Part shown: piece by piece, positions 17,827 through 35,712 of the stretch
How the letters are laid out: each line of letters begins with the position of its first letter
Position numbering within the stretch: the stretch's first letter is position 1
Source: Burkholderia lata
GTDB taxonomy: Bacteria > Pseudomonadota > Gammaproteobacteria > Burkholderiales > Burkholderiaceae
DNA length: 64,000 bases
Direction of reading: 5' to 3'
Assembly (NCBI RefSeq): GCF_000012945.1
Contig: NC_007511.1
Span: 1,860,001-1,924,000 of the forward strand
Notes under the pieces: generated by a model
Seen by the model: only the letters and a program-made list of their open reading frames with translations
Told to the model about the DNA's origin: nothing
Databases searched by the model: none
Program-made: the position numbers and the translations under genes

Positions 17827-18297
17827 TCACGCAGCCGCCGACGTGCCGGGCTCGCTGTGCCGCACCAGCAACACGGGCCGGTCGGCCGCGCGCAGCAGCG
17901 ATTCGGCGACACTGCCGAGCAGCAGCCGGCGCAAGCCATGCCGCCCGCTCGTGCCCATCACGATCAGGTCGGCATCGGCTTCGGCCGCCGTGCGCATCAG
18001 CACCGTGGCGACATCCTCGCCGTACGCGTCGAGCGCACGCACGGTGCCTGGCACGTGCTCCTGCGCGAGCACCGCTTTCGCATCGTCGAGCACCGGCGTC
18101 GCGGCGTCAGTCGCGGCCGCATCGCCGTCGCGCTCGGCCGCGAAACCCGCATCGACGTCGACGAGCTGCGGCCGGTGCTCGACGACATATGCGCAGGTGA
18201 CTTCGCCGCCGGACGCCGCCGCGATCCGGATCGCCTCGTTCAGCGCGAGACGCGCACTCGGGCTGCCATCGAGCCCGACGAAAATCCGCTTGTACAT
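17827..18297 (-). CDS. single-domain universal stress protein
   Basis: A 156-residue UspA-type protein: MYKRIFVGLDGSPSARLAL opens the Rossmann-like fold. It closes with the ATP-binding loop VMGTSGRHGLRRLLLGSVAE and VLLVRHSE, the G-2x-G-9x-G pattern of nucleotide-binding members. An insertion of acidic residues (about 65-85) lengthens the middle. The start follows GGAGGGACGGACC. An FNR/ANR box lies about 125 bases upstream (18415-18428), in keeping with induction of universal stress proteins at low oxygen. Confidence 0.93.
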   Translation of the reverse strand: MYKRIFVGLDGSPSARLALNEAIRIAAASGGEVTCAYVVEHRPQLVDVDAGFAAERDGDAAATDAATPVLDDAKAVLAQEHVPGTVRALDAYGEDVATVLMRTAAEADADLIVMGTSGRHGLRRLLLGSVAESLLRAADRPVLLVRHSEPGTSAAA

Positions 18298-18616
18298 GGT
18301 CCGTCCCTCCGACCGGGCACGCATCGCGCGTTGCGCGACGGCGGCCCGTTATCGCCACCCGGCCCGGTGCCAGGTGGCCTGCCGAACAGTCTGCCCCACG
18401 TGCCGACGCGCCCGTTGATGCGCGTCAAGCGCGGCCGGCACGCCCGCTGCTCCACGCCGGTTGCCGCAATTTCTAGTGACCCCATTACAAAAACCGTGTA
18501 AATCGCGCACAATTTCATCTTGAAAATAGACGTTGCATGCAGCCGGTGCGAGTTTTGTCCGGTTTTGCTGCGCTGCCGAGTGCCCACGGCAGCCCCGACA
18601 ACAGAATGGCTATCGA
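18298..18616. other. 319-bp divergent region between universal stress gene and histidine kinase
   Basis: It contains the FNR box at 18415-18428 and a less GC-rich patch near 18470-18545 that probably carries the kinase promoter. No gene is seen. Confidence 0.55.
18415..18428 (-). promoter_or_regulatory. FNR/ANR box before the universal stress gene
   Basis: TTGAT-GCGC-GTCAA fits the ANR/FNR consensus TTGA(T/C)-N4-(A/G)TCAA completely. Its centre is about 125 bases from the universal stress protein start. At the 31-base distance used by the other two sites the hexamer is CAGACT, a weaker -10, so promoter geometry is less certain here. Confidence 0.6.
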
Positions 18617-20728
18617 ATGACCGCAAGTGGAACCCCGACGCGTGACGCCCGAGGGCCCACGCGCCTCCAGATCATGTTACGCCAGCCGCTCGCGGCCGGC
18701 GTCGTTGCGTTGTGCGCGGGCGCGGCGCTGTCGCTTGGCGTCGCGCTGCTCGTGCGCGAGCAGTGGCAAGGCGCCGTCCATACGCGTTTCGAACGCCGCA
18801 CGACGCATGTGACCGCGATGCTGCGCCACGAGCTGCAATCCGGCGTGGCCGTGCTCGAAGGCGCGCGCGGCGTGTACAGCCTCGTCCCGGGCATGACGCC
18901 CGAGCAATGGCGCCGGTATGCGGACATGCTCGACCTCGACAGCAGCCGCTCACCGGTGCGCCAGATCGGCTACGCGCCGCTGCCGCCCGCGACGCGCACT
19001 GCCCTCGCCGGCGCGAAGCCGATGCCGGCCGGCACGCTCGCGACCGCCGTGCTCAGCGCACCGGCATCGAATTCCCCCGTCGTGCGCTTCGGCGCGTCCG
19101 ACGCGGCGCCGCTCGCGCGCGCGCTGCAGACCGGCGACATCGCGCTCGGTGTCCACCCGGCCGACGACGACACGTCCCGCGACGCCCGCACCTTCACGCT
19201 GTTCCTGCCGGTCGCCGCGTCGCCGCATGCGGTCGCCAACGCGCCCGGCCTGCGCGAAACCGGCGCCGACGGCGTGCTGTTCGCGGCGTTGAGCCCGCGG
19301 CGCCTGATCGAGCGTGCGCTCGATGCGGAACGCGGCATCGACGTGTGGATCACTGCCGGCGGCGATCGGCGCGCGATCGTGAGCGTCGAAACGACGACCG
19401 ACGAGGCCTCGGCATCGCCCGACCTGATGCGTCGCACCGACGAGCTGAATTTCGGCGGCACCGTGCTGACGCTCGCGTACTCCGCGGATGGCCGCCCGAG
19501 CGCAACCGGCGCACAACGCGCGGCCGGCACCGTGCTCGCCGCGGGGCTGATCGCGTCGATCGCGTTCGCGGTGCTCGTCCACGCGCTGTTGCGCGGCCGT
19601 TCCGGCGCCGCCGATTCGGGCGCGAGCAGCCGCGGCATCCTCAACGAGGCGCGGATGATGGGCATCATCCGTTCGTCGATGGAAGCGATCATCACGATCG
19701 ACGAAAAGCAGACGGTCGTGATCTTCAATCCGATGGCCGAGCAGGTGTTCGGCGTGTCCGCGATGGAGGCGATCGGTGCCCCGCTGTCGCGCTTCATCCC
19801 CGAGCGGTTCCGCGCCGCGCACGCGAAGCACGTCGACCAGTTCGGCGTGACAGGCGTGTCCGAGCGGCAGATGGGCCGGCAGCGGGTGCTGTTCGGGCTG
19901 CGCGCCAACGGCGAGGAATTCCCGATCGAGGCGTCGATCTCGCAGATCCGCGACGCGTCCGGCAAGCTCTATACGGTCATGCTGCGCGACATCACCGAGC
20001 GCCAGCGCGCGGAAAACGCGCTGAAGCTGTCGCGCGAAGAATTGCGCGAATTGTCGGCGAACCTGCAGAACGTGCGCGAAGAGGAAAAGACCCGCATCGC
20101 GCGCGAGCTGCACGACGACCTCGGCCAGCAGCTCACCGCGCTGAAGATGGATCTGTCGGTGGTCGAGCAGCAGTTGCGCGTGCCCGGCCGCACGCAGCCC
20201 GACGAGGACGTGCAGACGCACCTGCAGGGCATGCGGCGGCTGATCGACGCGACGGTCGCGTCGGTGCGGCGCATCGCGGCCGACCTGCGACCCGTGATGC
20301 TCGACGATCTCGGCCTCGTGCCCGCGATCGAATGGCTCGCGAACGATTTCACGAACCGCTACGGGATCGATGTCGAACGGCACATCGAAACCGGCGGCCT
20401 CACGTTCACCAGCGCGGGCGCGACCACGTTGTTCCGGATCGTCCAGGAAGCGCTGACGAACGTCGCGCGCCACGCGGATGCGACCCGCGTCGCGCTACGG
20501 CTCGACGTCGAGGACGGCTTCTGCGTGTTGCGCGTCGCAGACAACGGCCGCGGCTCGGCGCCCGGCGGCCCGGCCCACGAAGACAAATCGTTCGGCCTGA
20601 TCGGCATTCGCGAACGCGCCCACATGCTGGGCGGCACCGTGACGATCGACACCGCGCTCGCGCGCGGTTTCTCGATCACCGTCGCCTTCCCGCTCAGTAC
20701 CGTCCAACAGGAAACGCTCATCTCATGA
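18617..20728 (+). CDS. CHASE-PAS sensor histidine kinase (NarX/DegS type)
   Basis: This 703-residue kinase has a membrane helix at 22-45 and a periplasmic CHASE domain (about 55-295), including EGARGVYSLVPGMTPEQWRRY. A second helix (302-325) and a PAS domain (353-460, SMEAIITIDEKQTVVIFNPMA) follow. The HisKA_3 domain has phospho-acceptor His498 in ARELHDDLGQQLTALK. The ATPase shows EALTNVARHA (about 610) and DNGRG (about 641). HisKA_3 kinases pair with NarL/LuxR regulators, and the regulator gene overlaps its stop by ATGA. CHASE domains sense small external ligands; which one is unknown. Confidence 0.95.
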   Translation: MTASGTPTRDARGPTRLQIMLRQPLAAGVVALCAGAALSLGVALLVREQWQGAVHTRFERRTTHVTAMLRHELQSGVAVLEGARGVYSLVPGMTPEQWRRYADMLDLDSSRSPVRQIGYAPLPPATRTALAGAKPMPAGTLATAVLSAPASNSPVVRFGASDAAPLARALQTGDIALGVHPADDDTSRDARTFTLFLPVAASPHAVANAPGLRETGADGVLFAALSPRRLIERALDAERGIDVWITAGGDRRAIVSVETTTDEASASPDLMRRTDELNFGGTVLTLAYSADGRPSATGAQRAAGTVLAAGLIASIAFAVLVHALLRGRSGAADSGASSRGILNEARMMGIIRSSMEAIITIDEKQTVVIFNPMAEQVFGVSAMEAIGAPLSRFIPERFRAAHAKHVDQFGVTGVSERQMGRQRVLFGLRANGEEFPIEASISQIRDASGKLYTVMLRDITERQRAENALKLSREELRELSANLQNVREEEKTRIARELHDDLGQQLTALKMDLSVVEQQLRVPGRTQPDEDVQTHLQGMRRLIDATVASVRRIAADLRPVMLDDLGLVPAIEWLANDFTNRYGIDVERHIETGGLTFTSAGATTLFRIVQEALTNVARHADATRVALRLDVEDGFCVLRVADNGRGSAPGGPAHEDKSFGLIGIRERAHMLGGTVTIDTALARGFSITVAFPLSTVQQETLIS

Positions 20729-21372
20729 TCAAGGTGCTCATCGCCGACGACCATACGCTCGTACGCGACGGTCTGCGGCACATCCTCCAGAACGCCACCG
20801 GATTCGAGGTGGCCGGCGAAGCCTGCGACGGCCCGTCGACGATCGCGCTCGTGCGCGCCACGCCCGCACAGGTGCTCGTGCTCGACCTGTCGATGCCGGG
20901 CCGCAACGGCGTCGAACTCATCAAGCAGATCAAGGACGAGAAGCCCGCGCTGCGCGTCCTCGTGCTGACCATGCACGCGGAGCAGCAATACGCGGTGCGC
21001 GCGTTCCGCGCCGGCGCGTCGGGCTACCTGACGAAGGAAAGCGCGAGCGCCGAGCTGGTCGGCGCGGTCACGAAGGTGGCATCGGGCGGCGTCTACGTGA
21101 GCCTCGCGATGGCCGAGCAGTTTGCGCAGAGCCTGAACGAGCCGGCCGAGACGCTACCGCACCAGCGGCTGTCCGACCGCGAATTCGACGTGTTCCGGCG
21201 GATCGCCGCCGGCCAGACGCTGACCGAGATCGCCAACGCGCTGTGCGTGAGCGCGAAGACGGTCAGCACGTACAAGACGCGGATTCTGGAAAAGATGCAG
21301 ATGCCGCACGAAGCGGCGCTGGTGCGCTACGCGATGCGGCACAAGCTGCTCGACGAAACGGACGACGTGTAA
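20725..21372 (+). CDS. NarL/FixJ-type response regulator
   Basis: The 215-residue partner of the preceding kinase starts at an ATG overlapping the kinase stop (ATGA). The receiver has IADDHTLVRDG, phospho-acceptor Asp54 in VLDLSMPGRNG, the Thr of VLTMH and the Lys of YLTKES. A LuxR-type helix-turn-helix follows (LSDREFDVFRRIAAGQTLTE, IANALCVSAKTVSTYKTRIL). Translational coupling makes the pair a clear two-component system. Its targets are not apparent in the window. Confidence 0.96.
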   Translation: MIKVLIADDHTLVRDGLRHILQNATGFEVAGEACDGPSTIALVRATPAQVLVLDLSMPGRNGVELIKQIKDEKPALRVLVLTMHAEQQYAVRAFRAGASGYLTKESASAELVGAVTKVASGGVYVSLAMAEQFAQSLNEPAETLPHQRLSDREFDVFRRIAAGQTLTEIANALCVSAKTVSTYKTRILEKMQMPHEAALVRYAMRHKLLDETDDV

Positions 21373-33352: not shown

Positions 33353-33757
33353 ATGAATGCCAGCCAGTTACCCGCCGCGCTCCGGGTGTTTCTCGTCGAT
33401 CACGCCGTCGCCGTCCGGCAGCGGATCGCGCTGCTCGTCGGCGCGATCCGCGGTGTCGCCGTCGTCGGCGAGGCGGAAGACGGCCAGGACGCGTGGATGC
33501 ATATCCGCAGCAGCCAGGCGGATGTGGTGATCGTCGACCTGCGGCTGGCGGACGGCAGCGGCCTCGACCTGATCGGGACGCTGTCGAAGGCCGCGCCGCG
33601 CATCGTCACGATCGTGCTGACGAATCACTCGGCGCCGGCATTCAGAGAGGCATGCGCGTCGGCCGGAGCCGACTACTTCTTCGACAAGACCGTCGAATTC
33701 GACGCCGCATGCCAGGTCATCGAATCCCTGGTGCACACTCGCGTGCACCGCCCCTGA
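33353..33757 (+). CDS. stand-alone receiver domain protein
   Basis: All 134 residues form one CheY-like receiver: RVFLVDHAVAVRQRI, the phospho-acceptor Asp of VVIVDLRLADGSGL, the Thr of VTIVLTN and the Lys of YFFDKTVEF. There is no output domain, and the usual acidic pair is Asp-His rather than Asp-Asp. It ends 16 bp before the FNR gene on the same strand, so the two are very likely co-transcribed. It may act as a phosphate sink or through protein contacts; no partner kinase is adjacent. Confidence 0.92.
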   Translation: MNASQLPAALRVFLVDHAVAVRQRIALLVGAIRGVAVVGEAEDGQDAWMHIRSSQADVVIVDLRLADGSGLDLIGTLSKAAPRIVTIVLTNHSAPAFREACASAGADYFFDKTVEFDAACQVIESLVHTRVHRP

Positions 33758-33773: not shown

Positions 33774-34553
33774 ATGTCCACAGCCACCCCTTGCGCCGCC
33801 GACGTATCCATCACGCCTCGGCCGACGATTCCGCTTCGCGCGGTCACGCGCGCCGACGCCGCCAAACATCCCGCCGCGCGCTGCTCGGTGTGCGCGATGC
33901 GTTCGATGTGCCTGCCGCCGCACCTGACCGCGGCCGAATTCGGCCGCCTCGACTCGATCATCTGCACGACCCGGCAGGTACGCCAGGGCGACGCGCTGTT
34001 CCGCACCGACGATCCGTTCCAGAGCATCTATGCGGTGCGCGCGGGTTCGTTCAAGACGGTGATGATGCATCGCGACGGCCGCGAGCACGTGACGGGCTTC
34101 CAGATTGCCGGTGAAACGCTCGGGATGGACGGCATCGGCGGCGGCCAGCACTGCTGCGACGCGATCGCACTCGAGGACAGTGTCGTGTGCATCATCCCGT
34201 TCGGCGCGCTCGAAGCGGCGTGCCGCGAGATCAAGCCGATGCAGCACTTCCTCTACCAGATGCTGAGCAGCGAGATCGTCCGCGAATCGAGCCAGATGCT
34301 GCTGCTCGGCACGATGTCGGCCGAGCAACGCGTCGCGCATTTCCTGCTGAACCTGTCGTCGCGCTTCGAGGCGCGCGGCTATTCGGCGACGGAATTCAAC
34401 CTGCGGATGACGCGCGAGGAAATCGGCTGCTATCTCGGGATGAAGCTCGAAACCGTGAGCCGGATGTTCTCGCGGTTCCATCGCGAAGCGCTGGTCGAAA
34501 CGCGCGGCAAGCGCGTGCGCATCATCGACTCGCAAGCGCTCGCACGGGTCTGA
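33774..34553 (+). CDS. fnr: FNR-type oxygen-sensing transcription regulator
   Basis: The 259-residue protein has the complete cluster-ligand set of FNR. Cys37, Cys40 and Cys46 (CSVCAMRSMC, the C-x2-C-x5-C spacing of E. coli FNR) and a central Cys at 127 or 128 (GQHCCDA) would hold an oxygen-labile 4Fe-4S cluster. The cyclic-nucleotide-like domain spans 55-160. The C-terminal helix-turn-helix MTREEIGCYLGMKLETVSRM keeps the E-x2-S-R contacts that read TTGAT half sites. Three matching boxes occur in the window. It likely activates genes when oxygen falls. Confidence 0.94.
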   Translation: MSTATPCAADVSITPRPTIPLRAVTRADAAKHPAARCSVCAMRSMCLPPHLTAAEFGRLDSIICTTRQVRQGDALFRTDDPFQSIYAVRAGSFKTVMMHRDGREHVTGFQIAGETLGMDGIGGGQHCCDAIALEDSVVCIIPFGALEAACREIKPMQHFLYQMLSSEIVRESSQMLLLGTMSAEQRVAHFLLNLSSRFEARGYSATEFNLRMTREEIGCYLGMKLETVSRMFSRFHREALVETRGKRVRIIDSQALARV

Positions 34554-34595: not shown

Positions 34596-34946
34596 TCATT
34601 GCACCGCGCCGCCGGTCGCCGCGTTGCGCAGCCCCACCCTTGCACCGCCAGCCTGGCACGCGATCAGCGCCTGTTCGGCCTGCATGAACGCGCGGCGCAG
34701 CGCGTCGTCCACGTCGTCGCCGACACACGGCGGCAGCGGCCAGAGCGCCGTGTCGTGCATCACGAGGTCGAGCCGCACGTCGTACCGGCGTGCGCCGTCG
34801 GCGGCAGCACGCGATTCGATCGCGAGGTGGCACCCGCCGATCAGCGCGCGAAACCGCTCGAGCCGCACCAGCTGCGCGCCGGCTTCGGCTTCGACCGCGG
34901 CCGAAGCCGCGAATCCGTGGCAGGCGATCTGCATGCCCACGCCCAT
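34596..34946 (-). CDS. HPF/RaiA-like ribosome-associated protein
   Basis: The 116-residue protein shows the S30AE pattern in reduced form: MQIACHGFAASAAVEAEAGA, LVRLERFRALIGGCHLAIE, a YDVRLDLVMHDTAL strand and a C-terminal helix DDALRRAFMQAEQALIAC. Family members bind between the head and body of the small subunit and idle ribosomes in starvation or anaerobiosis. AGGAGACACGAC precedes the ATG. It is the last of three leftward small genes whose upstream FNR promoter is at 35672-35712. It meets the FNR gene tail to tail. Assignment is by pattern, so moderately sure. Confidence 0.72.
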   Translation of the reverse strand: MGVGMQIACHGFAASAAVEAEAGAQLVRLERFRALIGGCHLAIESRAAADGARRYDVRLDLVMHDTALWPLPPCVGDDVDDALRRAFMQAEQALIACQAGGARVGLRNAATGGAVQ

Positions 34947-35101
34947 GTCGTGTCTCCTGACGGGGCCGCCCGCTCGTCGACCGCCTTGCATGTGCCGCCC
35001 GCACCGAAAGGCGGCGGCACGCGTTACCCGTGGCGCGGCGCGACTTCTTCGATCGCTGCCCGGCCGATAGCCTGCCCGCGCCTTTGCTGGCGCGGAACCG
35101 G

Positions 35102-35341
35102 TCATACGTTGAAGGTCTGCGACGTCTTCATCTCGATCCACGTCATGCCGGCCCGCAGCCCTTCGATCATCGCCTCGCGCTCGGTCGGATACGCATGGCT
35201 GTGCTCGAACGTGTGATGAAAACGCGCGGCACCGGCGCCGTGCTCGACCGACACGCGGCAGCGGAATTCGCCCGATTCGCACGGACGCGTCTCGACTTCG
35301 ACGGACCAGTCGCGTTCGTGAATGTTGCCCTGCAGTGTCAT
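35102..35341 (-). CDS. small hypothetical protein, 79 aa
   Basis: GGAGGGCGC precedes the ATG. The product is soluble with three beta strands (DWSVEVETRP, FRCRVSVEHG, ARFHHTFEHS) and a C-terminal helix (REAMIEGLRAGMTWIEMKTS), like a compact double-stranded RNA-binding or chaperone-type alpha/beta fold, but no family is recognised. It starts 22 bp after the DUF1488 stop, hence the same transcript and the same FNR promoter. Confidence 0.75.
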   Translation of the reverse strand: MTLQGNIHERDWSVEVETRPCESGEFRCRVSVEHGAGAARFHHTFEHSHAYPTEREAMIEGLRAGMTWIEMKTSQTFNV

Positions 35342-35363: not shown

Positions 35364-35633
35364 TCAGAGCCGGAAGTGGCCGCTGTGCAGCAGCACCGGC
35401 CGGCCGCCGATTTCCTCGAGCATCCGTCGCGCCATCGCCTCGATCGCCGACCGGTGCGCGTCGAATGCGGCCAGCAGGTCGCGTTCGAGCAGCGACGGCG
35501 CGCCGAAATGATCTTCCAGCGCCTCGGCCGTGATCGCACACTGTACGCAACGCCCGTCGACCAGTGCCGAAAACGCCACGACCAGGTCGCGTGCGCAATA
35601 TTCGGGTGGTTCCGGCGGGAAGGCAATCTGCAT
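35364..35633 (-). CDS. DUF1488 protein, 89 aa
   Basis: MQIAFPPEPPEYCARDLVVAF followed by FSALVDGRCVQCAITAEALEDHFGA and LLAAFDAHRSAIEAMARRMLEE is the DUF1488 pattern (a small alpha/beta protein of unknown function). I start at the family-typical MQI at 35633; an ATG at 35648 is possible. It is the first gene of the leftward set 35633-34596 and lies about 30 bases after the predicted start site of the FNR-type promoter. Confidence 0.82.
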   Translation of the reverse strand: MQIAFPPEPPEYCARDLVVAFSALVDGRCVQCAITAEALEDHFGAPSLLERDLLAAFDAHRSAIEAMARRMLEEIGGRPVLLHSGHFRL

Positions 35634-35671
35634 CTGTCCGCCTGTCATCGTCGTGATGGCTCCATGACAAG

Positions 35672-35712
35672 AGCATAGTGGCGCGCGCGCCCGCACGCTT
35701 GACCCACGTCAA
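35672..35712 (-). promoter_or_regulatory. class II FNR/ANR promoter of the DUF1488-HPF-like genes
   Basis: TTGAC-CCAC-GTCAA (35699-35712) is a perfect match to the ANR/FNR consensus and fully symmetrical. TATGCT (35672-35677, minus strand) is centred 31 bases from the box centre, which places the box at about -41.5 from a start near 35664, the standard activating position. Confidence 0.75.

Follow-up and report, generated by a model that had tools for sequence, protein, structure and literature searches.

The window analysed here is a stretch of 64,000 nucleotides (nt) of the Burkholderia lata genome (contig NC_007511.1, positions 1,860,001 to 1,924,000), and the present work concerns a putative FNR-dependent promoter at positions 35672 to 35712 of this window and the three minus-strand genes that follow it. 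The first gene (35364 to 35633) encodes a DUF1488 protein of 89 residues (PF07369, E value 8.3e-25) and has an alternative in-frame ATG at 35648. The second (35102 to 35341) encodes a 79-residue protein, and the third (34596 to 34946) a 116-residue protein, P0001, which according to its fold model and family profile is predicted to have an S30AE fold and to be HPF/RaiA-like. This last gene lies tail to tail, with 42 bp between the ends, with a plus-strand gene encoding an FNR/Anr-type regulator (33774 to 34553; NF008365, 217.9 bits, just under the cut-off of 228). In FNR, a set of cysteines serves the cluster and an E..SR motif serves recognition. The regulator encoded here has a CX2CX5C arrangement plus a later cysteine and the E..SR motif, all aligned with the solved FNR chains 9qll and 5cvr. 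Thus, both the gene order and the complete set of cluster cysteines given in a preliminary description of the locus, made from the sequence alone, were confirmed.

The FNR/Anr box (35699 to 35712, minus strand; TTGACCCACGTCAA, or TTGACGTGGGTCAA in the direction of the operon) is an exact match to TTGAYN4RTCAA with fully symmetric half-sites, and is followed after 21 nt by the -10 hexamer TATGCT (read from 35677 to 35672, minus strand). FNR class II promoters have the box centred near -41.5, 21 to 22 nt ahead of the -10 hexamer. At this locus both the TTGAT-N4-ATCAA-like box and a spacing of this length were found. From the sequence, transcription is expected to start at about 35664 to 35665, and with a 21-nt spacer the box is centred at -40.5 or -41.5, according to which base is taken as the start; the symmetry of the box was described correctly, but calling its spacing exactly that of class II was slightly too strong. 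As class II sites would lead one to expect, no sigma-70 promoter with a normal -35 element was detected between 34500 and 35800. A known RNA element was rejected, as the three Rfam matches between 33300 and 36200 were all far under the gathering scores.

Exact TTGAYN4RTCAA sites occur 28 times in the genome (8,676,277 bases in three contigs, the window lying in contig C3), versus nine sites for the reversed control pattern, so a single box could be due to chance and would be weak evidence alone; for this reason, conservation was used. A homologue of the 116-residue protein is present in 52 of 200 Burkholderiaceae genomes. In a first set of loci, the best 30 of 61 matches, an exact box was present upstream in 29, with no limit on distance within the locus, and the sole locus without it (L031) ends at a contig edge. 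In a second set of 73 loci, which were picked by two conserved peptide words and hence are close relatives, and which share some organisms with the first set, an exact box was found within 900 bp upstream of the homologue in 69, when only about 0.2 would be expected by chance in the 65,637 upstream bases (from a density of 28 per 8,676,277) and the reversed pattern gave none. The four exceptions are a locus cut by a contig end (L069), two whose boxes have a single mismatch and lie at 640 and 130 bp (L075 and L101) and one with an exact box at 1030 bp, beyond the 900-bp window (L107). A -10-like hexamer (NANNNT) follows the box in all 69 loci, the spacing being 21 nt in 63 loci and 22 nt in the other six, and any alternative spacing between 10 and 39 nt occurs in 18 of them at most; the hexamer is TATGCT in all 27 loci with the full gene order and an uncut site. 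This conservation strongly supports the predicted class II FNR promoter upstream of the operon, as put forward in the preliminary description.

The box seems to accompany the gene for the 116-residue protein more closely than it does the operon. The order DUF1488, 79-residue protein and 116-residue protein with the tail-to-tail fnr gene is retained in 28 of the 73 loci, and four others have the 79-residue protein gene and fnr without a DUF1488 gene within 900 bp. The remaining 41, mostly from Paraburkholderia and Caballeronia, have none of the three neighbours at these places, and in 38 of them the homologue has its own box 96 to 262 bp upstream, which indicates that the FNR link tracks the S30AE gene and not the operon. 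Canonical HPF genes, on the other hand, have no exact box within 900 bp in any of the 29 loci with a settled start (30 loci among the matches listed from 60 genomes; L138 had no settled start). Relatives of the same class from other families also lack an exact box within 600 bp (0 of 29), a one-mismatch box being present in five. Further, divergent S30AE paralogues from Burkholderiaceae have a box at 82 to 840 bp in eight of 14 cases (searched over 900 bp), four of these boxes being 506 to 840 bp away, and none in the other six.

Exact FNR boxes are also dense near the homologue, with 140 across the 73 loci (597,628 bases in all; reversed control, 0) and up to six in one locus of 8.3 kb; the dense loci, which include L035, L036, L096 and L088, look like low-oxygen islands. 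In genus g24 (loci L154-L156, L159-L161, L164 and L165), each of three genomes has three or four S30AE genes, several with FNR boxes, and the extra copies lie within about 25 kb of one another.

The S30AE fold of the 116-residue protein is firmly predicted. Its AlphaFold2 model (pLDDT, the predicted local distance difference test score, 83.3) has the beta-alpha-beta-beta-beta-alpha arrangement up to about residue 99 followed by a low-confidence tail (103 to 116), and matches S30AE structures by both Foldseek and VIA-align. The preliminary description had named the fold beforehand as one of the points on which its proposal depended, and here the prediction sustained it. The profile of the family matched a single sequence of the PDB at E<=10, that of HPFcold (9t0z; E 2.2e-6, profile positions 1 to 97), and 22 of the 41 aligned family members matched PF02482 at E<=1, with a best value of 5.6e-6. 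A PDB search with P0001 alone gave a best E value of 0.15, a PF02482 search of the B. lata genome listed the canonical HPF as its only match, and a few relatives are annotated with this domain in the database. As the PF02482 cut-off is not reached, we regard the 116-residue protein as a divergent branch with the S30AE fold and not as a standard member. In a tree of 21 of the 41 family members with 29 canonical, 28 HPFcold-type and nine divergent sequences, the family forms a Burkholderiaceae clade near the HPFcold-type proteins, at the end of a long branch (1.5), and the canonical HPFs form a separate group with a support of 100/100. Homologues are often named metal ABC transporter ATPase or hypothetical protein in the databases, a misleading name that the S30AE identity corrects.

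HPFcold of Coxiella burnetii (CBU_0020) is ribosome-bound, its cold-shock domain contacting the anti-Shine-Dalgarno sequence, and it resembles the 116-residue family in the profile match and in tree position. In contrast, P0001 is too short for a C-terminal cold-shock domain, has lost some of the basic positions and has an FNR box upstream. Loss of such a domain by the family was considered and dropped, since among the 29 relatives from other families 23 are longer (about 170 to 190 residues, one with a misread start) and six are also short (110 to 120 residues), so the domain may never have existed. The B. lata genome also encodes a short HPF (contig C2, 3266685 to 3266969; PF02482, 85.3 bits), which is of the S30AE family and similar in size, but its nearest exact FNR box is about 23 kb away and it falls in the separate group of the tree. 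A precedent for an HPF under hypoxic control is the mycobacterial RafH (MSMEG_3935/Rv0079), which belongs to the DosR regulon but differs in being a dual-domain protein under another regulator; RafH grips the 16S ribosomal RNA (rRNA) via helix 1 (K21, R24 and R28) and helix 2 (R84, R88 and R91) (PMC10799931).

The low-oxygen regulation proposed in the preliminary description is right, and it was already known for the orthologues. BCAM1480-1482 of Burkholderia cenocepacia are among low-oxygen co-regulated loci (PMC9060813), and BCAM1480 (DUF1488), 1481, 1482 and 1483 appear in Table 2 of PMC4981469 among lxa-co-regulated genes and a putative regulator, in that case from a comparison of two isolates and not of oxygen levels. 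According to the same paper, B. lata 383 has no lxa locus, so the present operon would exist in its absence. At 6% oxygen the induction of BCAM1483 is 3.5-fold, and many low-oxygen-induced genes are associated with a motif resembling the FNR box (PMC4505428). The obligate aerobe B. cenocepacia can survive anoxia, for which it needs its two anr genes together. Orthology was taken from gene order, product names and the B. cenocepacia locus (L057); the order is the same as here, as are the products where named in B. cenocepacia and Burkholderia contaminans, and by gene order the FNR gene at 33774 to 34553 is the putative orthologue of BCAM1483 (anr1). The passages cited on BCAM1480-1482 give neither an S30AE identity nor a promoter geometry, both of which are described here; BCAM1482 is listed as a hypothetical protein (PMC4981469) or named without a product (in the passage of PMC9060813). 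The S30AE identity is new, as is a promoter tracking this gene even without the operon, and among the matches listed from the open-licence literature no link between Anr/FNR and HPF in Burkholderia was found. Further literature drawn on comprises PMC3759415, PMC9104464, PMC6127331, PMC5234846, PMC13392368, PMC3797731 and PMC4187911.

We consider it fairly probable that the operon is switched by FNR and that the 116-residue protein is a low-oxygen S30AE ribosome factor. As oxygen falls, an FNR paralogue loaded with [4Fe-4S], either the adjacent Anr1 or Anr2, would bind the box and touch RNA polymerase from about -41.5, turning on the three genes. The 116-residue protein would then associate with the small subunit of the ribosome, serving as a specialised S30AE factor alongside the ordinary HPF, whose gene lacks an FNR box, and could contribute to ribosome storage or protection while the cells survive anoxia. 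The conserved FNR-to-S30AE link would offer a concrete target for asking what the Anr regulon does to translation, and makes it testable whether low oxygen itself puts proteobacterial ribosomes to sleep.

Several observations weigh against this explanation. P0001 alone matched no Pfam family, and comparing the family profile with canonical HPFs gave no significant result (the alignments were thin). Of the 23 genomes shown from the same genus, two lack a homologue, and PMC4981469 lists Burkholderia multivorans ATCC 17616 without orthologues of BCAM1480 and BCAM1482. As for regulation, the same paper reports that lxa genes are expressed aerobically too in B. contaminans, so oxygen is perhaps not the sole signal. 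With respect to the protein surface, a joint MAFFT alignment, which is of low identity and leaves out L188, whose sequence had been read across a stop, gave six positions at which 60% or more of the canonical and likewise of the HPFcold-type sequences have a basic residue (25, 28, 31, 51, 92 and 100). Two of these have lost the basic residue in the family (25, 0%, with Gln; 51, 15%) and two are thinned (92, 49%; 100, 30%), P0001 itself being basic at two of the six. Finally, the ratio of nonsynonymous to synonymous substitution rates (dN/dS) is 0.17 to 0.59 for the 116-residue protein gene, above those of both neighbours (0.02 to 0.30 for the 79-residue protein gene and 0.03 to 0.19 for the DUF1488 gene), over 17 comparisons per gene that are not independent, as all were made against the copy in the window. 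Of the ribosome-hibernation operon envisaged earlier the fold has stood, but ribosome idling itself, though plausible, is something that we infer, in view of this surface and of the weaker constraint.

These same features, together with the long branch of the family in the tree, could mean that the promoter and the induction by low oxygen are right and that the S30AE-fold protein does not plug the ribosome but acts as a regulator or adaptor, for example by modulating the ordinary HPF or by binding another RNA or protein. We find this the less convincing account, although it is a possible one, because the whole fold is predicted, dN/dS is below 1 and HPFcold is ribosome-bound; moreover, positions 28 and 31 remain basic in 98% of the family, R28 and R31 being retained as in canonical and HPFcold-type proteins, and R58, common to HPFcold-type proteins, is found in 98% (R84 in 68%). 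The HPFcold-type proteins themselves lack the canonical basic positions 89, 96 and 98, so their loss in the family says little. Under the first explanation, the thinned basic surface suggests a looser, modified or partner-dependent binding to the ribosome. A tentative extension is that Burkholderiaceae have a private clade of FNR-switched, anoxia-specific S30AE proteins, akin to the HPFcold type but lacking both a cold-shock domain and part of the surface that grips rRNA, which would use a new binding mode or act on other hibernation factors.

It is unlikely that the box is simply part of the wider lxa regulon, with the DUF1488 and 79-residue proteins doing the work and the 116-residue protein being a dispensable passenger. 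These two proteins are indeed more conserved, and BCAM0277, located in the lxa locus, is also a DUF1488 protein, but in 38 of the 41 loci without these genes upstream an FNR box still precedes the homologue. A fortuitous match, or a box that serves another gene, is very improbable: the nine reversed-pattern sites imply that some of the 28 genomic sites are fortuitous, but the box recurs with fixed spacing in 69 of the 73 loci, and a role for a divergent gene was rejected because the DUF488 gene behind the box lies on the same strand as the operon and ends before it.

Between the genes for the 79- and 116-residue proteins there is a gap of 155 nt (34947 to 35101, minus strand) with a conserved AGGAG ribosome-binding site and a GC-rich inverted repeat, seen by eye. 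Neither an FNR box nor a T-tailed terminator was found in this gap, and cotranscription through to the 116-residue protein gene is likely. In 19 aligned sequences, the roughly 40 nt directly upstream of the start codon of this gene (region 34944 to 35105) show higher conservation than the remainder of the gap and are perhaps a translational control element. Past the gene, a candidate terminator (34584 to 34565) was no better than shuffled sequence.

The 79-residue protein, previously termed unrecognised, has no match over a cut-off, but it does resemble CV_2116 (structure 2kon) and DUF6566 (22.7 bits against a cut-off of 58, and 17.3 against 26.7), and Foldseek returned nothing for its model at E<=0.001. 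Databases name its homologues UDP-glucose 4-epimerase, which is implausible for a protein of this size with a model that may be CV_2116-like. Upstream of the FNR gene lies a single-domain response regulator gene (33353 to 33757, plus strand; PF00072, E value 2.7e-18), also found beside fnr in loci where the operon order is kept. No transfer RNA gene was detected in the window, which contains a second exact FNR box (TTGATGCGCGTCAA, 18415 to 18428) with CAGACT 21 nt further on. This box lies upstream of a minus-strand universal stress protein gene (17827 to 18297, scanned as 17827 to 18294; PF00582, E value 3e-30), which lies beside genes for a PAS/histidine kinase and a LuxR-type regulator (18617 to 21372) and is perhaps the counterpart of BCAM1495.
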